DNA from: Betaproteobacteria bacterium
GTDB lineage: Bacteria; Pseudomonadota; Gammaproteobacteria; Burkholderiales; CAIKXV01
Direction: 5' to 3'
NCBI GenBank assembly: GCA_947458835.1
Contig: CANHBC010000013.1
Span: forward strand, 1 to 34,675
Length of the DNA stretch: 34,675 nt
In this document: in pieces, positions 1,927 to 14,443 of the stretch
How the letters are laid out: every line of letters begins with the position of its first letter
Numbering within the stretch: position 1 is the stretch's first letter
Notes under the pieces: model-generated
Database searches by the model: none
What the model saw: only the letters and a program-made list of their open reading frames with translations
What the model was told of the DNA's origin: nothing
Made by a program: the position numbers and the translations under genes

Positions 1927-2245
1927 TCCGTTGCGCAGATTGCGCGGAGCGGATAGGGTAGCGTTTCGATTCGGGTCGGCGCCTTCCAGCGTTCGCCCCC
2001 GGAGTGGCGGGCTCGATAGTACGTATCGACGTACCTGATAGATCCGGCGTTGGCCTGTGTGACGACGGCGGGCGGGTCGAAGTCCCTGAGCATCGGCTGC
2101 ACGCGCAAGCAACCTTCAACCTGTTGCTGGGCCGGGCGGCGTGGCGATTGCCAGCGTATCGGTCAGCCCGACGCAGGACAGCAGGGGTTTTCGAGGACCG
2201 TCCCGTCCTGCAATCGCGGTTTCCATTCATCCAGAAGGCACACAG

Positions 2246-4387
2246 TTGAAGTCGCTTCGTCGTCGACCTGCGTCTGCCCTGCCTGCATCCGGCCCGGCGG
2301 CTGCAGCCTTCGGTGTCCTCGCGCTGGCATTGGCACTGGCAGTGGCAGTGGCAGTGGCACTGGGACTCGTCCTGGTCGTCCTGTGGCAGCGGTCCCTCGA
2401 GGAGGTCCGGCAGGACACGTTCGAGCGCACGGCCCAGGCGGTCGCGAGCCGCTACGGACAACTGCTCGGTGAATTCGAGCAGTCATCGGCCGCGTTCGCC
2501 TCCGGACCGGCCGTGCTGTCGGCGCTCCAGGATCCGGGTGGGCCGCGCTCGAGCCTGCGCGCGGTGCTCGAACACAGCGCGCTGCGGGAACGCTTCTCGT
2601 CGCGCATCCTGGTCGTCGATGCCGCGGGCGATCCGATCGCCGGGGTACTGTCCGAGCTGCCCGGGGACGACATCCGGGGCCTGTTGCCCGGTCCGATTCC
2701 CGCCGGGGACGTGACGACCCGGGTGGTGCTGGATGGCCGGCGGCTCACGCTCAGCCTGCCGGTAGTGGGTCCGGAAGCCGGGATCGCCGTGGGCCGGCTG
2801 CTGGCGGTCGTCGACCTGGATGACCTGTTCATGCCAGTGATGCGCGGACTGCCGGAGGCGGCGCAATGGACGCTGCAGGTCGGCACCGGAACCCCGGCCA
2901 CACTGCAAGGCGTGGGCTGGATCGACATCCCGGTGCCGACCGACGGTGCGTTGCGGGGCATCAAGCTCCACCTGCAGGCGCACCGGGACGGCGCGGGCGG
3001 TCTTCCCTGGGGGAGCCTCGAAACGGTCTTGCTCGTCCTGTCGGGCGGGCTGGCGCTGGCGGCGCTGCCCATCCTGCGGCGACTGCGTGCGGCGACACGG
3101 GTTCTGCCGGACGGCACCGGCTTCCGGGCGCCGGGTCAGGTATCGGCGATCGCCGACCAGGACCCGGCAGTCGCGCGCTTGAGTGCGGTACAGGCGGATG
3201 TCACCGAACTCATCGAGACGGCGAACGAACTGCGCACCAAGGAAGCGCGGCTGTCGCTCATGTTCGCGCTGAGTCCGGACGGAATGGCGTTGATGGACGC
3301 GGACGGCCGCGTCTTCATGGCCAACGAGGCGTTCCTGCGCTTCGTGCGCCTGGGTCGTGATCAGGTGATCGGCCACACGGCGCCGGAGCTCTCGGCGCTG
3401 CTCGAGCCCCTCGCTGCGCCGGATGAAGCCTGGGAAGGGCTGCCGTCCCCGCTCGACGCGGCGTCCTTTGTCGATGACGATCCGCACCGCCGGCGCCAGT
3501 CGAAGCGCCACAGGCTGCATCTGGTCGACCCGAAGCAGGTGCTGGTGTGCGGCGTGAAGCCGATCCCCGGCCTGGCCAGCCGCGAGTACGTGCTCTACAT
3601 GCGCGATATCACCCGCGAGCACGAGTTCAACGAGATGAAGAGCGAGTTCCTGTCCACCGCCACGCACGAGCTGCGCACGCCGATGGCCTGCGTCCTGGGT
3701 TTCGCCGAGATGCTGGCGGAGGGCTTGTCGACCGCGGAGGATACGCCCGAGCACGCACGCCTGATCTATGAACAGGCCAGGGAGATGAGCCGTACGCTCG
3801 ATGACCTGCTCGACCTCGCACGGATGGAGGCGCGGCGCGCGGGCTCGCTCACCTTCGTCCCGGAATCGGCGGTGGCCATCGTGACCGGACTGGCGCAGAC
3901 CTGGCGTGTCAACGGCGACTCGCGCAGCGTGCAGCTGCAGGTGGCGTGCGATGCCGATGTGTGCGTGTCGGTGGACACACAGAAGATCCGCCAGGTCCTG
4001 CGCAACCTGCTGAGCAATGCCTTCAAGTACTCCACCGCGCCATCGCCAGTGAGCCTGTCGGTGCAGGCAGGGCCCGACGGGCCGGTATTGTTCACCGTGA
4101 CCGACGAAGGCATGGGCATGACGCCCGACGAAGCGCAACACGCCTTCGATCGGTTCTACCGGGCCGAGGGAACGTCCAACGTCAAGGGCAGCGGGCTCGG
4201 GCTCAGCGTGGTGAAACAGATCGTGGAACTGCACGGGGGCACGGTGCGCCTGAGCAGCCTCGTCGGCACAGGCACGGTGGTCTCGGTCGAATTGCCCCGG
4301 ATCCCGGGGACGCGCGGTGAAGCGGGCGCGCTCGACGATGATCGGCCAGGCTTCGATGAAGCCCAGGACCGCCCAGGGCCAGGATGA
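2246..4387 (+). CDS. membrane sensor histidine kinase with PAS domain (HisKA + HATPase_c)
   Basis: Probable TTG start at 2246 with AGAAGG upstream; TM helix; PAS region (LSLMFALSPDGMALMDADGRVFMANEAF); H-box STATHELRTPMACVLGFAEML; N/G boxes (NLLSNAFKYS, DEGMGM, GSGLGLSVVKQIVELHGG). Confidence 0.9.
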   Translation: MKSLRRRPASALPASGPAAAAFGVLALALALAVAVAVALGLVLVVLWQRSLEEVRQDTFERTAQAVASRYGQLLGEFEQSSAAFASGPAVLSALQDPGGPRSSLRAVLEHSALRERFSSRILVVDAAGDPIAGVLSELPGDDIRGLLPGPIPAGDVTTRVVLDGRRLTLSLPVVGPEAGIAVGRLLAVVDLDDLFMPVMRGLPEAAQWTLQVGTGTPATLQGVGWIDIPVPTDGALRGIKLHLQAHRDGAGGLPWGSLETVLLVLSGGLALAALPILRRLRAATRVLPDGTGFRAPGQVSAIADQDPAVARLSAVQADVTELIETANELRTKEARLSLMFALSPDGMALMDADGRVFMANEAFLRFVRLGRDQVIGHTAPELSALLEPLAAPDEAWEGLPSPLDAASFVDDDPHRRRQSKRHRLHLVDPKQVLVCGVKPIPGLASREYVLYMRDITREHEFNEMKSEFLSTATHELRTPMACVLGFAEMLAEGLSTAEDTPEHARLIYEQAREMSRTLDDLLDLARMEARRAGSLTFVPESAVAIVTGLAQTWRVNGDSRSVQLQVACDADVCVSVDTQKIRQVLRNLLSNAFKYSTAPSPVSLSVQAGPDGPVLFTVTDEGMGMTPDEAQHAFDRFYRAEGTSNVKGSGLGLSVVKQIVELHGGTVRLSSLVGTGTVVSVELPRIPGTRGEAGALDDDRPGFDEAQDRPGPG
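2324..2365 (+). repeat. in-frame hexanucleotide repeat (NTGGCA)x~7 encoding LALALAVAVAVALG in TM helix
   Basis: CTGGCA TTGGCA CTGGCA GTGGCA GTGGCA GTGGCA CTGGGA read directly. Confidence 0.85.
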
Positions 4388-4492
4388 GGCTTCCGGCAAA
4401 CCGGCGCTTGCAGCGAAGCTTGCACACTGAATGCTGGTTCGGTAGCGCTGACCGGGCAGTGTGGACGAGCCGTCCCGGGCACCGGGGTGACC

Positions 4493-6190
4493 TCAGGCGA
4501 CGCGGCGGTCCGGAGGGCCTTCGACCGGCAGGGTAAACCGGAACGTGGATCCGTTCCTGCTCGATGCCTGCAGGTCCAGCGTCCCCCCGATCATCCGCAT
4601 CAGGATCTTTGCATGGAACAGTCCGATGCCGAGGCCTCCGCCCTCCGGCCTGGACAGGTTGACGTCCTGCACGAAGGGATCGAACATGAGGCGACGCACG
4701 TCCTCGCCGATGCCTTCGCCCGTGTCGGCGATGTCGATCCGCAGTTCCGGCCCGACGCGCGCCACGTGCACCCTGACCTCGCCGCCATCGGTGTACCGGA
4801 TGGCGTTGTCGAGCACGTTGCCCACGGCCTTGGCCAGCAGGCGGCGATCGGTGTGGATCGTGCCGAGGTCGGGCTCGGCGTCGATCAGCAGGCGCAGGTC
4901 CTTGGCCCGGGCGGCCGGCGCATGCGCCTGTTCGAGGCTTTGCACCAGTTCCGACACGTCGACAGCGTTCGGCTTGAACGGCAGCTGTCCTTCGCCCGCG
5001 CTCTGCACTTCGGTGATCTGGCCGACGATGTCACGGAGCCTGATCGCGGATTCGTGCAGCGTACTTGCGTAGTCCGTCAGTTCAGGCTCGAGGTCCGCCT
5101 GCATCAGCAGTTCGGAGAACCCGAGCACGCCGGTGAGCGGCGTGTGGATCTCGTGGGAGACCATGGTGATGAACCTGGACTTGAGTTCGTTGATCGAGTT
5201 CGCCCGCCGCCGCTCTTCCTGCAGGTCCGAGAGGAGTCGGTCCTGGCGCACGAGGCCGATGCCGATGAAGACAAGCCCGACGACGATCGCACCCGACAGC
5301 ATCAGGCCCAGCGCGAGCTGCTTGCTGCGGTGGCGGTGGTACTGCGCCATGGCTTCGGTCGTCGCCTTCCCGACCACGACGACCAGATCGAAACCCGGGA
5401 TCCGTTCGAAGGCAACGAAACGTTCCTTCCCGTCCACGGAGCTGCGCGCCACCAGCGTGCCGGAGGCGCTCGACCGCATCGTTTGCCATTGTGGACTGTC
5501 GTCGATCCGGTCGCCGGTGCCGATCTCCGCCCCGCCAACCGTTCGTGCGCGTATGACGCCATCCAGACCCACCGTCGTGACGGAGCCGCTCTCACCCAGG
5601 TCGATGCCCTTGTATATCTGGGTGTAGAAGTAGGGATCCACCGACACCACGACCACGCCCATGAACTCACCCGACGGGCTGTCGATGCGTCGCGTGACCT
5701 GTACTGTCCACCGCTTCGATACCCGTCCCAGCACCGGGATGCTCACGAAGGTTCCCTCGGTGAGCCTTTTCGCGTGGACCTGGAAGTGTTCCCGGTCGGA
5801 AACATTGACGGTGCTCGGGCCCAGGTTGGAAAAGACCACGCGGCCGTCCCGGTCGGCGATGGCCAGCTGCACGATGTGGGTTCCACCGACGTCGAACCGC
5901 TTCATGAACTGCGGCGATGGGAGGACGCGTTCTTCGCCGAAATCGGTGGCCACCAGCCGGGCCAGGCGGTCGGCCGTGTCGAAGCCCAGTGACGAATGCT
6001 GCGCCAGCAGGCGGGCGAGGGTCGACAACTGGCGCTCGGTGTACGCGACCTGCTGTTCCCGGTCGGTCTCGAGGGCGTTGAAGAGGGTCATCCACAGCAG
6101 GGCCAGCGCCAGGACGGCGATCAGCCCGCCGACCCGTGCCGATCGTGGCAGTCGGGACAGCTGTGTCCAGGCATTGAGCATGACGGGCAC
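4493..6190 (-). CDS. sensor histidine kinase with periplasmic Cache/PDC-like sensor
   Basis: Two TM segments flanking a PDC-like region; H-box MVSHEIHTPLTGVLGFSELL; HATPase (VGNVLDNAIRYTDGG, DTGEGIG, GGLGIGLFHAKIL). Confidence 0.9.
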   Translation of the reverse strand: MPVMLNAWTQLSRLPRSARVGGLIAVLALALLWMTLFNALETDREQQVAYTERQLSTLARLLAQHSSLGFDTADRLARLVATDFGEERVLPSPQFMKRFDVGGTHIVQLAIADRDGRVVFSNLGPSTVNVSDREHFQVHAKRLTEGTFVSIPVLGRVSKRWTVQVTRRIDSPSGEFMGVVVVSVDPYFYTQIYKGIDLGESGSVTTVGLDGVIRARTVGGAEIGTGDRIDDSPQWQTMRSSASGTLVARSSVDGKERFVAFERIPGFDLVVVVGKATTEAMAQYHRHRSKQLALGLMLSGAIVVGLVFIGIGLVRQDRLLSDLQEERRRANSINELKSRFITMVSHEIHTPLTGVLGFSELLMQADLEPELTDYASTLHESAIRLRDIVGQITEVQSAGEGQLPFKPNAVDVSELVQSLEQAHAPAARAKDLRLLIDAEPDLGTIHTDRRLLAKAVGNVLDNAIRYTDGGEVRVHVARVGPELRIDIADTGEGIGEDVRRLMFDPFVQDVNLSRPEGGGLGIGLFHAKILMRMIGGTLDLQASSRNGSTFRFTLPVEGPPDRRVA

Positions 6191-6192
6191 GG

Positions 6193-6942
6193 TCAGCGAG
6201 GAGCGACGGCTTCGCGGTTGATCTGGTCGCGCAGGTCGATGAAGCGTTGCGCGTTCTCGAGGAACCGAAGCGTGAGTCGTGGGTCGAAATGCAGGCCGGA
6301 CTGCTGCTGGATCATCTCCAGCACCTGGTCATCGGGCAGTGCCTTCCGGTAGACCCGGTCCATGGTCAACGCGTCGAAGTAGTCGATCAGTGCGACGATG
6401 CGTGCCACCTCGGGAATGGCCTCGCCTTCGAGCCCCCTCGGATAGCCCGTGCCGTCGTACTTCTCGTGGTGGCAAAAGGCGATCTCCGCAGCCATCTCGA
6501 GTACCGGGATGCCGCTGCCGCCGAGGATCCGCGCCCCGAACTCCGGGTGACGACGCATCACCGTCCACTCTTCTTCGGTGAGGCCTTGCGACTTCTTGAG
6601 GATGGCGTCGGGAACGCCGATCTTTCCGACGTCGTGCATCGGCGCGGCTTCTTCCAGCAGGGCGGCCTGGTCCTGCGGCCAGCCGCCCAGGCGCGCGAGC
6701 AGGGCGGCCAGCCGCCCGATGCGTACCAGGTGCGTGCCGGTGTCGCTGTCCTTGAATTCGGCTGCGACGGTCAGCCGGTGGAGCGTGTCGCGATGCGCCT
6801 GCTCGAGCAGCGTATAGGCGCGTTCGCGTTCCAGCAGCAGTTCGGCGAGGTCGGACGAGACCTGGCCGAGCTGGTCCAGAAGCTCCTGGGGTCCCGGCGG
6901 CAGCGGATCGGAGGAGGCGTGCGGCGTGCGGGCAGGCAGCAT
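6193..6942 (-). CDS. HD-GYP domain protein (putative c-di-GMP phosphodiesterase)
   Basis: HD motif MHDVGKIGVPDAIL and GYP motif HHEKYDGTGYPRGL intact. Confidence 0.93.
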   Translation of the reverse strand: MLPARTPHASSDPLPPGPQELLDQLGQVSSDLAELLLERERAYTLLEQAHRDTLHRLTVAAEFKDSDTGTHLVRIGRLAALLARLGGWPQDQAALLEEAAPMHDVGKIGVPDAILKKSQGLTEEEWTVMRRHPEFGARILGGSGIPVLEMAAEIAFCHHEKYDGTGYPRGLEGEAIPEVARIVALIDYFDALTMDRVYRKALPDDQVLEMIQQQSGLHFDPRLTLRFLENAQRFIDLRDQINREAVAPR

Positions 6943-6948
6943 CGGCCG

Positions 6949-7374
6949 TCAACCCGGGGAGGATGACAGTTGCGCCCGGACCGTCGCGAGCAGCTCCAGG
7001 GGACTGAACGGCTTGGACATGAAGCGGTCGGCCCCGCTGTCCGCGGCCATCTGCCGGTCGCTCTGCTGCGCGCGAGCCGAAAGCACGATGACATAAGGCC
7101 AGGCATGACCCGCCGCGTTGCGCCGCGCGATGATCTCGCGGCACAGATCCAGGCCATTCGTGCCGCCGGGCAGCATGATGTCGAGGATCGCCAGCGAGTA
7201 GGCGTCCGGATGGGCGTGCAGCAACACGCGCGCAGCGTCACCGCTGCTCGCCTCGTCGATGGGAATTCGCAGCGGCTTCAGTGAGGCATTGACCAGCTTG
7301 CGGATATGTTCATGGTCCTCTACCAGAAGCACGCGCTGCGGGGTTGGGGCAGGGCGTGGGGTCGGATCGGTCAT
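6949..7374 (-). CDS. CheY-like single-domain response regulator
   Basis: RVLLVEDHEHIRK...LAILDIMLPG...IVLSARA...DRFMSKPFSPLEL; ATG at 7374 (internal to the longer ORF). Confidence 0.9.
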   Translation of the reverse strand: MTDPTPRPAPTPQRVLLVEDHEHIRKLVNASLKPLRIPIDEASSGDAARVLLHAHPDAYSLAILDIMLPGGTNGLDLCREIIARRNAAGHAWPYVIVLSARAQQSDRQMAADSGADRFMSKPFSPLELLATVRAQLSSSPG

Positions 7375-7396
7375 GAGGCCGGTGGGTCGTCTGGGT

Positions 7397-8038
7397 TCAT
7401 GCAGTACGCCTGCGCGTTGCGATCCCGGCCTGTACGAAGCCCAGGAGCTGTGCAAAGGGCACCGGCTTTCCGAGTACCGTGACATCCGGGGGGAGGTGGA
7501 ACTTCTTCTCGAGTTCCGCGGTATCCACGCCAGTGATGACGATGATGTTCATGCAATCGAAGGCAGAATCGGCACGCAGCTTGCGGATCACTTCCGCGCC
7601 ACCCAGCTTGGGCAGCACGAGATCGACGATCATCAGATCCGGCAGGTTGCGCGCGGCCTTCAGGATGGCTTCATAGCCGTCCTCCGCGACCTCCAGCCGG
7701 ACCGGGAGCTTCCAGGCTGCGATGCGGGCAGCGTAGAGCTTCAACAGCGCCGGGTCGTCTTCGACCACCAGGATGCTGTATTCGCCGTCGTTGCGCTGGG
7801 TCGGGGGAAATACCCGTCCGGCACGCCGCGCCGTTGCCGGCATTTCGCGTGCACTCAGGTGGGCCTCGATGGCCGAGGCCGGGATGCGCCGGTGTCCGCC
7901 AGAGGTTTTCCAGGCCTGAAGTTCACCCGCCTCGACCATGCGCTGAACCATCGAAAGGGAGACGCCCAACCGGGCTGCCGCTTCCCGGGTACTGAGGTAA
8001 TCCGTGCTGGCTTCCTCCTGGACGACTTTTGCAGCCAT
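7397..8038 (-). CDS. N-terminal excisionase/MerR-type HTH fused to C-terminal receiver domain
   Basis: YLSTREAAARLGVSLSMVQRMVEAGELQAWKTSGGHRRIPASAIEAHL (HTH_17-like) followed by SILVVEDDPALLKLY...DLMIVDLVLPKLGG...VITG...LGKPVPF (REC). Confidence 0.9.
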   Translation of the reverse strand: MAAKVVQEEASTDYLSTREAAARLGVSLSMVQRMVEAGELQAWKTSGGHRRIPASAIEAHLSAREMPATARRAGRVFPPTQRNDGEYSILVVEDDPALLKLYAARIAAWKLPVRLEVAEDGYEAILKAARNLPDLMIVDLVLPKLGGAEVIRKLRADSAFDCMNIIVITGVDTAELEKKFHLPPDVTVLGKPVPFAQLLGFVQAGIATRRRTA

Positions 8039-8110
8039 TACCTCTCCGATTGGTGAAGTGCGTGGGAGTCCGTGGACGACCCTGAAAAATCAAAAAACAT
8101 CGAACACTTA

Positions 8111-8139
8111 AATATAACGGTAAAAGGACGCTTGATCAA
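8111..8139 (-). promoter_or_regulatory. sigma70-like promoter TTGATC-N17-TATATT for the HTH-REC/REC/HD-GYP/HK operon
   Basis: -35 at 8139-8134, -10 at 8116-8111 on minus strand, 17-nt spacer, in an AT-rich island upstream of the CDS start at 8038. Confidence 0.6.
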
Positions 8140-8201
8140 TACGTGCAGCGTATCGGTGCGTATCTGCGCAGGGTTCAATGCATGATCTGACGATAATTCG
8201 C

Positions 8202-9401
8202 TCAGCGCTGCGGGGTCGAATCGCGGCGCACCGGCTGGCCCGACCCAGGCGGCGGGGCTGCCGGGAGTTGCACCGTGACGGTCGTTCCCTTTCCAAGGGT
8301 GCTGTCGAGGCTGACTTCGCCACCGTGGTTGCGGATGATGTCCCTCGCCAGTGACAGACCCAATCCAGTCCCCGGCAGGTGGCGGGTGTTGGCGCCACGG
8401 GAGAAGGGCACGAAGATCCGCTGCAGGTCGGACTCCGCGATGCCGATTCCCTGGTCGGACACGCGGAACTGGACGAGCGTCTTGCCATTCTGCTCGACCA
8501 TTGAGAGGTCCATCTCGACCGGCGATTCCGGCGGGGAATATTTCAGGGCGTTGTGCAGGATGTTGCGCAGCGCCTGCATCAGCTTCTCCTTGTCCGCGAG
8601 GATCTCGATGTCACGCGCACAGGCGTTGGCCACATGGATGCGCTGGCGTTGCGCATTATTGCCATATCCGGCCAGCAGGAACTCGATGAACGGGCCAAGT
8701 GCTGTACGTCGGTACTCGAACGCACGCACGCCCGAGGCTTCGATGCGGGACAGGTCGAGGAGTTCGTCGAGCAGATGCGTCAGTTCGGTGGCGTGGCGGT
8801 GTATCAACCCGGCAAATTCGGAGATCTCTTCCTGGGAAAGCTGCCCGGAGTGGAGGAGTTCGGAGAAACCCAGCACCGTCGACAGGGGCGTGCGGATCTC
8901 GTGTGCCGCCGCGGACACGAAGTCACTCTTCGTACGCGAGACCTGCGCTTCCTGCGTGACATCACGGAAGATGAACACGCAGGCGCCGACGGGCGATTCG
9001 GAGATCTGCAACCGGCGCCGCTCGAGGATGATCTCCGACGGCGTGCACAGCGCCAGCCACTGGCGGTCCCTCGACTCCTGCATGAGCGAATCGCTCGCGG
9101 CGGCGTCCGTTGTCTTCGGCTTCCAGGGCTCGAGTTCTTCCAGGGCAGGCCAGGGGGTGTCCGGCGTGGCACAGGCTCTCAGTCGGGACTCCACCGCTTC
9201 GATCGGCAGGCCAAGCAGGCCCTCCTGCCCGGCATCGATCAATCGGCAGAACGCGTCGTTGGCCGACTCGACGCGCCCGTCTCCGTCCACGAACAGGAAG
9301 CCGTCCGGACTCCTGGAGACAAGGACCTCGAGGTTGCGCCCGAATCGCGGGACGTCGGCGGTCTCGGGGACCTGGGACGCACCGGCGAAGGGTATGTTCA
9401 C
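8202..9401 (-). CDS. soluble PAS-domain sensor histidine kinase
   Basis: GTG start at 9401 with AAGGAG upstream; PAS (LVSRSPDGFLFVDGDGRVESANDAF); H-box SAAAHEIRTPLSTVLGFSELL; HATPase (ILHNALKYSPPE, DQGIGI, GTGLGLSLARDIIRNHGGE). Confidence 0.9.
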   Translation of the reverse strand: MNIPFAGASQVPETADVPRFGRNLEVLVSRSPDGFLFVDGDGRVESANDAFCRLIDAGQEGLLGLPIEAVESRLRACATPDTPWPALEELEPWKPKTTDAAASDSLMQESRDRQWLALCTPSEIILERRRLQISESPVGACVFIFRDVTQEAQVSRTKSDFVSAAAHEIRTPLSTVLGFSELLHSGQLSQEEISEFAGLIHRHATELTHLLDELLDLSRIEASGVRAFEYRRTALGPFIEFLLAGYGNNAQRQRIHVANACARDIEILADKEKLMQALRNILHNALKYSPPESPVEMDLSMVEQNGKTLVQFRVSDQGIGIAESDLQRIFVPFSRGANTRHLPGTGLGLSLARDIIRNHGGEVSLDSTLGKGTTVTVQLPAAPPPGSGQPVRRDSTPQR

Positions 9402-10288
9402 AGCGGTGGCTCCTTCTTGACGAAGGAATCCGACAGGACCAGATAGACCGATTCCGTGACGTCGGCCGGATTGCGGCTTCGGGGGGGGATGGGGGTATCG
9501 ACCGCTCCAGCGCGCGGGGGCGCGCCCTCGGCGTCGAGCAGCCGACCGAGCAGCGAGGCTACATGTTCGACCTTGACCGCCAGCGCCAGTTGCGGGATGT
9601 CCTGGCCGTTGGACAGCGTGAGGCGTCCGACGACCATGCCGACGACCGAGCCCTCGGCATCCAGGACAGGACTGCCGCTGTGTCCGGCCAGCGCATGGGC
9701 CGAGATCTGCATGTGGCGCGGGTCGTCCCGGGGGCCGTCCCTGCCGAAGACGACGCCGGTCTGCACCTTCGGTTGCCTGCCCAGCACGGACGGCAGCGGA
9801 TAACCCACGAAGGACACCGCGCTGCCGAGCCGGGCGGGTTCCACCGCGGTACGCATGCCCTGGTTGGCGCGACGGTTGCCGGGGAAAGCCAGTATGGCGA
9901 TGTCGTTCGCGACGTCCGAAGCCACGAGCCGTGCGCTGAAACGCGCGCCCCAGGCGCTCATCACCACGATCCGGTCCTGGCCGTTGACGACATGGAGCGA
10001 AGTGACCAGGTAGCCGGACTCGCTGAGCCACGCGGTGCCGGTCCGGCGCGCCGTGGTGGGCGGGGCTGCGGGCGGGGTCGCGGGCGCTTTCGCCGCAGGG
10101 GGGTCCTGAAGCACATGGACGCAGTACCCGGCGGCGCAGGTCGAGCCTTCAGGGGGCGTGGGTCCGTCTGCCGCCAGGCCCTGCCCGCAGAACAGCGCCG
10201 TCCACAGCAAGGCGATCGATGCGCACCATCGTGCCCACCGTGTGGAAGCTGCGCCCTTGCGCTCCCGGCGAACGGAACAAGCCTTCAT
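9398..10288 (-). CDS. secreted/periplasmic trypsin-like (S1C-type) serine protease
   Basis: Signal-peptide-like N-term; triad-like motifs YLVTSLHVV (His), DVANDIAILAF (Asp), GHSGSPVLD (Ser). Confidence 0.8.
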   Translation of the reverse strand: MKACSVRRERKGAASTRWARWCASIALLWTALFCGQGLAADGPTPPEGSTCAAGYCVHVLQDPPAAKAPATPPAAPPTTARRTGTAWLSESGYLVTSLHVVNGQDRIVVMSAWGARFSARLVASDVANDIAILAFPGNRRANQGMRTAVEPARLGSAVSFVGYPLPSVLGRQPKVQTGVVFGRDGPRDDPRHMQISAHALAGHSGSPVLDAEGSVVGMVVGRLTLSNGQDIPQLALAVKVEHVASLLGRLLDAEGAPPRAGAVDTPIPPRSRNPADVTESVYLVLSDSFVKKEPPL

Positions 10289-10475
10289 GAGACGCGTGAT
10301 CGGGACCGCGCCAATCGCGTGCCCGCGGCCAACGACCATGGCAGTGTCCGGGCGCTGGCCCAGGCACGCCTGCCGCCGCTGCCAGCGCTCGGCACCGTGC
10401 CGTCGCCACGCTCCAGGGCGGCTGTACGGCGGGGCCGACGGAGGGGCCGGCTGCGCCTTGCATACGGGTTCATTG

Positions 10476-10730
10476 CTACGCTATCTCGTGGACGGGGGGG
10501 GAGGCCCGTTCATTCGTTCGGGGACGCGGATACGCTGGCGAAGCCCCGGTACGCATCGACCGGGGCACGCTGCCCGATGAGGAGCGTGGGGTCCCCGGAA
10601 TGGCGATGATCTCGATGCCTTCCTGGACGTCACGGCACGACAGCAGCACCGCATCCCTGCCGAGCGCCGCGCCGACCTGCCTGCGGGCCGCAGATGCATC
10701 CCCGGCGACGAATCTGTGCAGTACGTGCAA
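10476..10730 (-). CDS. small protein resembling only the N-terminal segment of FlhF
   Basis: TTG start at 10730 with strong SD AAGGAGG at 6-nt spacing (alternative GTG at 10733); translation MHVLHRFVAGDASAARRQVGAALGRDAVLLSCRDVQEGIEIIAIPGT matches the FlhF N-term pattern (xxVxRFxAxDxxxAxRQVxxxLGxDAVIxSxRxVxGGVEIxA). Confidence 0.65.
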   Translation of the reverse strand: MHVLHRFVAGDASAARRQVGAALGRDAVLLSCRDVQEGIEIIAIPGTPRSSSGSVPRSMRTGASPAYPRPRTNERASPPVHEIA

Positions 10731-10893
10731 CACACACCTCCTTCGATGGCTTCCCGTCGAATTGAGCTAATTGAGCAAGCTGGTTTGTACGGTAGTTCGT
10801 TTCAGAACGCAAGCCTGCCGTGCGAGGGCAACGGGGGACGGGCGGGACTGACGGGGCTGAACCGGGGCGTCGAGAGTGACGTTCACGCGCTGT

Positions 10894-10921
10894 GTGCTTG
10901 ATAATCATCGTTATCAAGCAC
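10894..10921. repeat. perfect inverted repeat, 11-bp arms with 6-bp spacer: GTGCTTGATAA-TCATCG-TTATCAAGCAC
   Basis: Read directly; 23 bp upstream of the recombinase ATG. Confidence 0.95.
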
Positions 10922-10944
10922 GCAAAACCTTTTGCCCCTGAGCC

Positions 10945-12891
10945 ATGAACCGACAGTTGTCCCTCCATCACTTTGCTTTCTTCCGGGGCTACCTGGAGGG
11001 GTTGCCGTTGTCGACGCTGGCCCAGCGCTACCTCGAGCAGGGCGGGGAAGACGGGAGCCCGCGACGCACGGTGCAGTTCGTCCGAGACGCGCTGCGTTCG
11101 CTGGCGATGCAGCACGGACAGCTCCGGTATGCACGCGCGCTGGCCATCGATCCCGCGCGCCTGTACGCGCCCGCACGGCCGCCGGCGGGCGACGGGGACG
11201 AGCCTTCGCTGGAGGCATTCCGGCGTGCCGTCGATCCGCGCGGCTTCTACGGAGAAGCCGAACTGATCGAACTGTTCCAGCAGCAATGCGGGCAGCCGCG
11301 ACAGGACCGGCGACAGCAGCGCATCACGCGCCTGCGCAACCTGCAGCGCGAGGCGATCGAGTTTCTCCAGGCGCGCGTGCGGCCCGAGCCGTTGCCAGCT
11401 CATGCGGTCGAGGCCTGGCTGCCGCCGCGCCTGGCTGCGCACCTGATGGCCGCCGGCATCCGGACGCTGGGCGAACTGGTCGCCCGCATGAACACCGGCT
11501 ACCGCTGGTGGGAGACTGTGCCCGGCATCGGGGTCGAGAAGGCCGCCCGGTTGCGGCGGTGGCTGGCGCCCCATTCCGGCGTCGAGGGACTTGCACTGGA
11601 CCGGACGGCGGTGGTGCCCCGCGAGCACCTGGGCAGCGCGAGCGAACTGCTCCGACAGCGACCGGTGCGCACCGAGATCGCACCGCTGGAACGCTTCCTG
11701 GTACCGCGCGAACTCGATGGCAGCCAGGGCAGCCTGCGCGCCGAGCCCGGCCGCGCGCAGATCGCGGCCCGTGACGATGCGGAAGCGATCGCGGCCTGGC
11801 TCAACGCGCGGGGCCGCAATGACAACACCCGCCGCGCCTACCGGCGCGAGGCCGAGCGGCTGCTCCTGTGGTGTGTGCTGGAACGCGGCATGGCGCTGTC
11901 CTCGATCACCGTGGACGACTGCGCGCGGTATCGCATCTTCCTGCAGGCGCCACCCGCGGCATGGGTGGCCCCGCGCAACGTCGAGCGCTGGAGCCCGGCG
12001 TGGCGCCCGCTGTCCGGGCCGCTGTCCCCGCGCAGCCAGCGCACCGCGCTCGCGATCGTCTCGGCGATGTTCGACTGGCTGGTGTCGTGCCAGTACCTGG
12101 TCGCCAACCCGTGGAAGGCGCTGCCCCGTCCGGGTCCGGCGCCCACGCGCGACCCGTCCCGGGCGTTCAGTCATGAGCAATGGGCGGCGATCCGCGGCGC
12201 GGTCGACGCCTTGCCCGACCCGCTCCGGCGGACCCGGATGCGGCTGGTCACCGAACTGCTCTACCACACCGGCCTGCGACGGTCGGAACTGCTGGCCGCG
12301 AGCCTCGGCGACCTGCGTGAGGAAATGCTCGATGGCGAGGCGCTCTGGGTGCTCACCGTCGCCGGCAAGGGCGGACGGAGGCGCGAAGTGCCGATCGTCG
12401 AGGCGGTCATGCGCTGCCCCGATGAAGACCTCGCCGGGCGCGGCCTGTCGGTGGATCCGCGCGATGCTGCACCGGACGCCCCGCTGATCGCGGCCCTCGT
12501 GGGCGAGCCGGGCGGTACAGGTCCGGCGGGTGCACGGACTGCGCCGCGGGGGATGGCTGCGCAGGGCGCCGAGGCTCGCCTGCCGGCGGCGCAGCTCTAT
12601 CGCGAACTGAAGCGGGTGTTTGCTGCCGCCAGCGCGGGGCTGCAGGCGGGAGGGGCACGCGGCGCCGCGCGCGTGGCGCGGGGTTCACCGCACTGGCTGC
12701 GCCACACCTTCGCCACCCACGCGGTCGGGACGGTGCCGCCCGACGTGGTCGGCAGCGTGCTCGGCCACGCGCCGGTGGCCTCGACCCCGCTTCCGGCCGG
12801 CACCGACCTGCGCCGCAAGGCGCGCGGGCTACGGGCGTTCGGTGCCGCGACCGACAACAGCCCGCCTGTACCCTCGTCCCGCCGATCGTGA
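10945..12891 (+). CDS. DUF3701-type tyrosine recombinase/phage integrase family protein, apparently lacking catalytic Tyr
   Basis: N-terminal DUF3701-like region with HhH-like PGIGVEKAARL; catalytic-domain motifs HTGLRRSELL, VAGKGGRRREVPI, HWLRHTFATH, VLGHAPVAST; no Tyr where the nucleophile is expected. Confidence 0.85.
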   Translation: MNRQLSLHHFAFFRGYLEGLPLSTLAQRYLEQGGEDGSPRRTVQFVRDALRSLAMQHGQLRYARALAIDPARLYAPARPPAGDGDEPSLEAFRRAVDPRGFYGEAELIELFQQQCGQPRQDRRQQRITRLRNLQREAIEFLQARVRPEPLPAHAVEAWLPPRLAAHLMAAGIRTLGELVARMNTGYRWWETVPGIGVEKAARLRRWLAPHSGVEGLALDRTAVVPREHLGSASELLRQRPVRTEIAPLERFLVPRELDGSQGSLRAEPGRAQIAARDDAEAIAAWLNARGRNDNTRRAYRREAERLLLWCVLERGMALSSITVDDCARYRIFLQAPPAAWVAPRNVERWSPAWRPLSGPLSPRSQRTALAIVSAMFDWLVSCQYLVANPWKALPRPGPAPTRDPSRAFSHEQWAAIRGAVDALPDPLRRTRMRLVTELLYHTGLRRSELLAASLGDLREEMLDGEALWVLTVAGKGGRRREVPIVEAVMRCPDEDLAGRGLSVDPRDAAPDAPLIAALVGEPGGTGPAGARTAPRGMAAQGAEARLPAAQLYRELKRVFAAASAGLQAGGARGAARVARGSPHWLRHTFATHAVGTVPPDVVGSVLGHAPVASTPLPAGTDLRRKARGLRAFGAATDNSPPVPSSRRS

Positions 12892-13000
12892 GCCACACCC
12901 CTCACGCGCCCGCCTACCGGTACCATCGCGCCTACCGGATTACCCGGCCATGCGCGCTGGATCGCTGATGCGCCGGGGCTTCGACGACACTGAACCGAGA

Positions 13001-14443
13001 ATGCAGGCAACCATGGAACTGGACAACAAACTTCCTGCCGCAGCGCTGGTGGAGCGGCTGGCGCAGGTCGTAGGCCACGCCCATGTCCTGACCGACGCGG
13101 CGGACGTCGCCCCGGCGGTGAGCGACTGGCGCGGCTTCTACAAGGGACGTGCGATCGCAGTGGTGCGCCCCGGCAGCACCGCCGAGGTGGCCGACGTGGT
13201 CCGCGCCTGCGCCGAGGCTGGCGTGGCGATCGTTGCCCAGGGCGGCAACACCGGCATGTGCGGCGGCGCGACCCCGACCATGGACGGACGCACGATCGTG
13301 CTGTCGCTCGCACGGATGAACCGCGTGCTCGCACTCGATCCGCTGAACGACACCATCACCGTCGAAGCCGGCTGCGTGCTGGCCACGGTGCAGCAGGCGG
13401 CCGCCGAGGCCGGCCGGCTGTTCCCGCTGTCGCTGGGCGCGGAAGGCAGCTGCCAGATCGGTGGCAACCTCGCGACCAATGCCGGCGGTGTGAACGTGCT
13501 GCGCTACGGCAACACCCGCGATCTCGCGCTCGGGCTGGAAGTGGTGCTGGCCGATGGCAGCGTGATCGAGGGCCTGCGCGGCCTGCGCAAGGACAACACC
13601 GGCTACGACCTGAAGCAGCTGTTCATCGGCTCGGAAGGCACCCTGGGGGTGATCACCGGCGCGGTACTCAAGCTGTTCCCGATGCCGCGTACCTCGGTCA
13701 CCGCGTTCGCGGCGGTACCCGATCCGACCGCGGCGATCGCGCTGCTGGGCCGGCTGCGCGATCAGGTCGGCAACCGCGTGAGTGCGTTCGAGCTGATCTC
13801 CCGTTTCAGCATCGAGCTGGTGCTCACGCACATCCCGGGTTCGCGCGATCCGCTCGGCGGTACTTCGCCCTGGTATGTGCTGACCAACGTCGACGATCCG
13901 CGCACCGAGTCCGACCTGCGCCCGGCGCTCGAGCAGGCGCTGGCCGATGCGGTCGAGGCCGGGCTGGTCACCGACGCGGTGCTCGCGGAGAGCGATGCAC
14001 AGGCGCAGGCGCTGTGGCGCATTCGCGAGTCGATCCCCGACGCCTCGAAGAACGAAGGGCTGCTCTACCGGCACGACATCTCGGTGCCTGCCAGCGACAT
14101 CCCCTCGTTCATCGACGAAGCCGGTGCCCGGCTCGAGGCGGCCTTCCCCGGGGTGCGCGTGGTCTGCTTCGGGCACATCGGCGACGGCAACCTGCACTAC
14201 AACTGCTACGTGCCAGGCCGGATGCGCGACGATCCGGTGGCGATCGCCGCGACCGACGTGAACGAGGTCGTGTTCCGCCTGGTGCACGAACGTGCCGGTT
14301 CGATCAGCGCGGAGCATGGCATCGGCCAGGCCAAGGTGGCCGAGCTGCCGCACTACAAGAGCGCCGTCGAGCTCGATGTCATGCGCCGGCTCAAGCGGGT
14401 GCTCGACCCGCAGGGCATCATGAACCCGGGCAAGGTGGTCTGA
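13001..14443 (+). CDS. FAD-binding oxidase/dehydrogenase (GlcD/D-lactate or D-2-hydroxyglutarate dehydrogenase-like)
   Basis: FAD_binding_4 motif VVAQGGNTGMCGGATP (as IVAQGGNTGMCGG), IGGNLATNAGGVNVLRYGNTRDLALGLEVVLADG, C-term HIGDGNLHYN, SAEHGIGQAK, DPQGIMNPGKVV. Confidence 0.93.
   Translation: MQATMELDNKLPAAALVERLAQVVGHAHVLTDAADVAPAVSDWRGFYKGRAIAVVRPGSTAEVADVVRACAEAGVAIVAQGGNTGMCGGATPTMDGRTIVLSLARMNRVLALDPLNDTITVEAGCVLATVQQAAAEAGRLFPLSLGAEGSCQIGGNLATNAGGVNVLRYGNTRDLALGLEVVLADGSVIEGLRGLRKDNTGYDLKQLFIGSEGTLGVITGAVLKLFPMPRTSVTAFAAVPDPTAAIALLGRLRDQVGNRVSAFELISRFSIELVLTHIPGSRDPLGGTSPWYVLTNVDDPRTESDLRPALEQALADAVEAGLVTDAVLAESDAQAQALWRIRESIPDASKNEGLLYRHDISVPASDIPSFIDEAGARLEAAFPGVRVVCFGHIGDGNLHYNCYVPGRMRDDPVAIAATDVNEVVFRLVHERAGSISAEHGIGQAKVAELPHYKSAVELDVMRRLKRVLDPQGIMNPGKVV

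Follow-up and report, generated by a model that had tools for sequence, protein, structure and literature searches.

Smyshlyaev et al. (2021, PMC8138268) assign proteins carrying the DUF3701 domain to the TnpR subgroup of simple tyrosine recombinases, which has a helix-hairpin-helix motif whose function is unknown. TnpR of Tn4401 shares the DUF3701, core-binding and catalytic domains with the protein described here (33% identity over residues 137–634 of the latter), and AATAA-N6-TTATC lies approximately 50 nt before the tnpR start, which is also the position of the repeat at our locus. Relatives are present in 1394 plasmid records, with 171 near full length, and at least seven plasmids carry one in the vicinity of parA/parB or rep (Sulfuricystis pSTJ2, Burkholderia pBMUL01 and pBMC401, a Burkholderia vietnamiensis plasmid, Caballeronia p1 and p2, and Robbsia p2). 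The recombinases of pSTJ2, pBMUL01, pBMC401, the two Caballeronia plasmids and Robbsia p2 show 36–39% identity to our protein; most are full-length including the N-terminal part, and several have a core-like site with a 6-nt centre upstream. Among viral contigs, distant integrases alone matched. Among solved structures, the folds closest to that of our protein are XerD, XerA and XerH, belonging to the Xer/dif and single-recombinase Xer (XerH/difH) systems, and dif resembles our site in its inverted arms and 6-nt spacing. Two arms around a short centre are the geometry of tyrosine recombinase core sites, as in dif and loxP.

We analysed a stretch of 34,675 nucleotides from a betaproteobacterial genome (hereafter the window), which encodes a DUF3701 recombinase with the following features.

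10945–12891, plus strand: DUF3701 tyrosine recombinase gene, 648 amino acids, with Pro617 at the nucleophile position (ORF, Pfam, alignment and codon comparison)
11365–11628, plus strand: DUF3701 domain (PF12482), residues 141–228, scoring 79–84 bits against a cut-off of 26.9
12226–12786, plus strand: catalytic domain (PF00589, Phage_integrase), residues 428–614, with R445, K475, H583, R586 and H608 intact (Pfam)
12793–12795, plus strand: codon CCG at the nucleophile position, which is Tyr in 32 of 32 aligned relatives

The reading frame is open from ATG to TGA (1944 nt), and the DUF3701 domain lies N-terminal of the core-binding and catalytic domains, as in the DUF3701/TnpR subgroup. In a 33-member alignment, R445, K475, H583, R586 and H608 occupy the conserved R-K-H-R-H columns, where the sole exception is a Thr for Lys in the copy of genome G002. 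At the position of Pro617 the remaining 32 members all have Tyr, and no Tyr follows Pro617 anywhere in the window protein, which rules out an alternative nucleophile further downstream. An earlier note on this DNA had read an open frame with R, K, HxxR and GH motifs, a Pro in place of the nucleophile and no later Tyr; the alignment bears out each of these points. Of the six catalytic positions, the protein lacks Tyr alone. It is thus a tyrosine recombinase by descent, without the nucleophile that an active one must have. Because this residue is missing, strand cleavage is expected to be dead, in agreement with the catalytically dead protein that the note had proposed.

The codons around this position read ACC CCG CTT CCG GCC GGC ACC in the window, ACC ACG CTG TAC ACC CGC ACC in genome G009 and ACC GCG CTG TAT ATC CGC GGC in G002. 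Four of the six bases differ between CTT CCG of the window and CTG TAC of G009. The reading frame is maintained on both sides of the nucleophile codon and RRKARGLRAFGA aligns, which rules out a frameshift at this point; with four bases changed and the frame kept, neither a single base-calling error nor a frameshift explains Pro617. The predicted structure of the window protein is of limited overall confidence (pTM 0.42), and pLDDT stays below 50 in the loop and helix surrounding residue 617. Since it is also below 50 there in the intact G009 protein modelled from the same alignment, the models are uninformative on the effect of the prolines.

Close homologues within the genus are found in only two other genomes, G009 (79% identity) and G002 (72%), both of them metagenome-assembled genomes in the public genome scan. 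Both retain Tyr, as does every wider homologue whose C-terminus was inspected. Because all 32 aligned relatives, including the two closest, carry Tyr, the loss is specific to the window lineage, and the clade-wide loss that had been raised for checking is ruled out. The Lys replaced in G002 is that of the catalytic β-hairpin (K475 in the window protein; GKG to GTG), and the G002 sequence is divergent just past its Tyr. Of the three members known from this genus-level group, two have therefore lost a catalytic residue, a different one in each case. The G002 copy (L004) also has Leu at the invariant W413. In both G009 and G002 (L003 and L004), the recombinase ORF and a Bug/TctC-type receptor gene overlap at their 3′ ends, tail to tail, so their C-terminal tail past RAFGA is not homologous to that of the window protein. 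The record carrying the G002 copy, CAMDXD010000050.1, belongs to an assembly titled Bordetella parapertussis and groups with the genus of the window in the genome search; the species label of this metagenome bin looks doubtful.

Two further features precede the gene.

10891–10924, no strand: inverted repeat with 14-nt arms and a 6-nt centre, putative cognate core site/operator (repeat and enrichment searches)
10876–10905, plus strand: promoter-like element GTGACG-18-GATAAT, with its −10 hexamer placed where the left repeat arm ends on the inside (one found; mean of 0.1 in shuffles)

The arms of the repeat (10891–10904 and 10911–10924) are 93% complementary, with one mismatch, and 6 nt apart; its core is TGCTTGATAA-TCATCG-TTATCAAGCA (10895–10920), with exact arms. 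With up to three mismatches allowed, the pattern was absent from all 100 shuffled sequences, so the inverted repeat first noticed at 10894–10921 is real. GATAA-N6-TTATC is matched at 10 of 10 positions, at −45 relative to the gene. The repeat is a single copy in its own genome (up to three mismatches), and the only other such site in eleven genus genomes is located 5′ of the G009 gene, with identical arms and the centre TGAGAG; G002 has no upstream repeat. The G009 gene and its repeat reside at a locus unrelated to that of the window. The shared arms at unrelated loci, together with the enrichment across the family described below, support the association of the repeat with the recombinase that the earlier note had assumed, and suggest that it is the cognate core site of the window recombinase. 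The same promoter layout is found in G009, with TTGCCA-18-GATAAT at the equivalent place. It is plausible that the window protein retains binding to this site and may repress its own gene via the promoter-overlapping repeat.

Similar sites are distributed across the DUF3701 family. Inverted repeats with arms of at least 10 nt are present upstream of 13 of 31 non-redundant members versus 90 of 1077 control windows (12 of the 13 having an even centre compatible with 6 nt), repeats with a 6-nt centre upstream of 12/31 versus 42/1077, and GATAA-N6-TTATC at nine or more of ten matches, a criterion defined in this analysis and absent from the literature, upstream of 13 of 39 members versus 19 of 2035 control windows; as related sequences are non-independent, enrichment p-values are descriptive only. 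Many of the sites lie approximately 45–70 nt before the start, including those of Caballeronia p1 and p2, Acidovorax pACP4.2, Ideonella-group members and Tn4401 tnpR, and many relatives have no recognizable repeat under the criteria used. In Tn4401 tnpR (L176, K. aerogenes plasmid), AATAATCGTTATTATC is located about 50 nt before the start and matches the GATAA-N6-TTATC core at 9 of 10 positions; it is a candidate core resolution site of Tn4401. The recombinase site is single in the 6.4-Mb genome G065, where it lies near the gene on a 116-kb plasmid contig. The Burkholderia branch has the site GAAGGGN4ATAG-N6-CTATN4CCCTTC, with one or two per genome. Some Burkholderia genomes have a second site with no recombinase close to it, and a model with strictly one site would not lead one to expect this. 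At two loci (L161 in G105:C22 and L162 in G101:C9), perfect Burkholderia-type sites have no recombinase within 5 kb; such sites may serve a recombinase in trans or remain from a gene that has since disappeared.

The most economical role for the DUF3701 family would be the resolution of multimers or cointegrates at a single cognate site by the gene, and we use the label resolvase because of the neighbouring genes, the architecture of the site and the name given to Tn4401 TnpR. We did not find the apparent layout of this family, a two-armed site with a 6-nt centre and GATAA/TTATC inner ends just 5′ of the gene, described elsewhere; it recurs beside parAB on many plasmids of Burkholderiales and in front of Tn4401 tnpR. 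Through this layout, the recombination sites of a resolvase group that is widespread but unstudied become open to direct testing, and this family-wide single-site architecture may be a more useful result than the dead recombinase.

The surroundings of the window gene differ on its two sides.

2000–10700, no strand: stretch without orthologous counterpart in ten other genus genomes (sensor kinases, HD domain, trypsin-like protein)
12885–13048, plus strand: decayed 3′ end of an NAD(P)-binding oxidoreductase gene, the intact form of which is present in G005 and G009 (neighbour comparison)
13001–14443, plus strand: FAD-linked oxidase, where the genus-wide syntenic backbone begins (synteny)

The oxidoreductase remnant abuts the recombinase stop codon and places the right-hand border of the foreign stretch within approximately 10 nt of it. 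The gene thus lies where a foreign or rearranged stretch (genomic island) ends on the right. Within the remnant, CGCCTACCGG occurs twice as a direct repeat, at 12911 and 12929. A search for the left border in the window's own genome did not find it; it lies outside the contig stretch examined, and no direct repeat flanking the island (attL/attR) was identified. An empty-site comparison of the G009 and G002 loci through neighbour-gene orthologues in G004 and G001 gave no clean junction. The sole core-like site lies 2 kb inward of the right border and is single in the genome, and a role as the island attachment site is not supported. No parA, parB or rep was present among the neighbours examined, and those on the right belong to the genus-wide chromosomal backbone. 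The distance of this copy from partition genes would have removed the selective reason to keep an active resolvase.

Selection was estimated on a three-taxon tree of the window, G002 and G009 genes by the Nei-Gojobori method. The resulting ω values, which are rough because dS of approximately 0.7 is partly saturated and the window branch is resolved by three sequences only, with both near relatives metagenome-assembled, are 0.26 for the window branch (95% interval 0.18–0.36), 0.31 for the G002 branch that lost Lys (0.22–0.45) and 0.10 for the intact G009 branch (0.07–0.15). The first two are about three times the value of G009, yet far below 1. Constraint on the gene therefore appears relaxed but real where a catalytic residue is gone, so that the purifying selection asked about in the earlier note is present in weakened form. 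Random substitutions yield a stop in 2.7% of cases, and a fully neutral branch at a dS of 0.38 is expected to carry about 20 stops, whereas none is observed. By this measure, and with indels left out of account, neutral drift can cover at most about the final 15% of the branch. Window-specific changes are enriched at residues 592–630 around the lost Tyr (8/28 versus 50/457, p = 0.012), and those at highly conserved positions include S610P, T613S and Y617P. The ω values and the clustered changes would fit a catalytic function that was lost while the rest of the protein is still kept or has just recently been released.

We consider it probable that the window gene is an orphaned resolvase-type recombinase at an island edge, dead for cleavage, under relaxed rather than absent constraint, and in early degeneration. 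The ancestral protein would have bound its own core site, by both arms, immediately 5′ of the gene. Two copies of the site would synapse when replicons or transposon copies fused, and cleavage by Tyr would resolve the dimers or cointegrates to monomers, while the occupied site would also shut the promoter of the recombinase itself. On the chromosome, distant from partition and replication genes, the window copy presumably no longer had this resolution job. Tyr was then lost in the window lineage, and the segment around it now seems to change fast, while the site and the remainder of the protein are intact. Today the protein most likely neither cleaves strands nor recombines DNA, it would probably still bind its site and repress its own promoter, and the gene would be in early degeneration.

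The earlier note had offered a repurposed regulator or early decay. A repurposed clade is not supported, as all other homologues examined carry Tyr, and sequence alone cannot separate a regulator from early decay. That the dead recombinase has been selected as a sequence-specific DNA-binding protein, repressing its own promoter or controlling a neighbour by way of the repeat, is unlikely in our view. The long open frame with its low ω and missing stops would agree with it, as would the perfectly kept repeat arms, the retention of all other catalytic residues, and the promoter-like −10 overlapping the repeat in the same layout as in G009, the closest relative. Such a regulator would, however, be confined to one lineage with no second Tyr-less relative and to a genome with no other copy of the site to control; the constraint may date mostly from before the Tyr loss, and the window-specific changes cluster in the C-terminus. 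A genus-wide version, in which independent losses of Tyr (window) and Lys (G002) converted the protein into a non-cleaving self-repressor acting via its former recombination site, is more doubtful still.

An ordinary pseudogene, which lost its function very recently and is simply drifting, is rather less likely than the reading above. It would account for the raised ω of the window branch, for the non-conservative changes at nearly invariant active-site positions (the three substitutions named above) and for the decayed remnant next door. The gene nevertheless has neither stop nor frameshift, and the fit is borderline: raising ω from 0.10 to 0.26 needs a branch that is neutral for approximately 18% of its length, slightly above what the missing stops allow. 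Tyrosine recombinases act as tetramers, and XerC and XerD show mixed use. The window protein might accordingly work in trans, as a non-cleaving partner in a mixed tetramer to which another recombinase supplies Tyr, and a weakly similar host recombinase is encoded in the genome (G000:C237). This is very improbable, as the genome encodes no other DUF3701 protein and no Tyr-bearing relative of the same arm preference was found. An error of sequencing or assembly at the Tyr codon, conceivable in a draft genome of 257 contigs, is highly unlikely in view of the four changed bases, the frame kept on both sides and the neighbouring residues that have changed too.

Compared with Tn4401 TnpR, the orphaned window recombinase lacks the catalytic Tyr and is not beside a Tn3-type transposase; as the two align from residue 137 only, it also has approximately 137 extra N-terminal residues. 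The plasmid DUF3701 recombinases keep Tyr where examined and reside in plasmid maintenance clusters, whereas the window copy is chromosomal and Tyr-less. Xer proteins lack both DUF3701 and the N-terminal domain, the window protein lacks their Tyr, and its scores of 69 and 55 bits against the NCBIfam XerC and XerD models are far from the curated cut-offs of 335 and 330. Natural Tyr-less recombinases that keep the other catalytic residues and their site would be ready test cases for whether a recombinase turns into a regulator or dies. The DNA-binding domain of a tyrosine recombinase has been reused as a regulator in the ALOG domain proteins (PMC3537659). These are eukaryotic and have lost the whole catalytic domain, whereas the window protein keeps that domain and misses the nucleophile alone.
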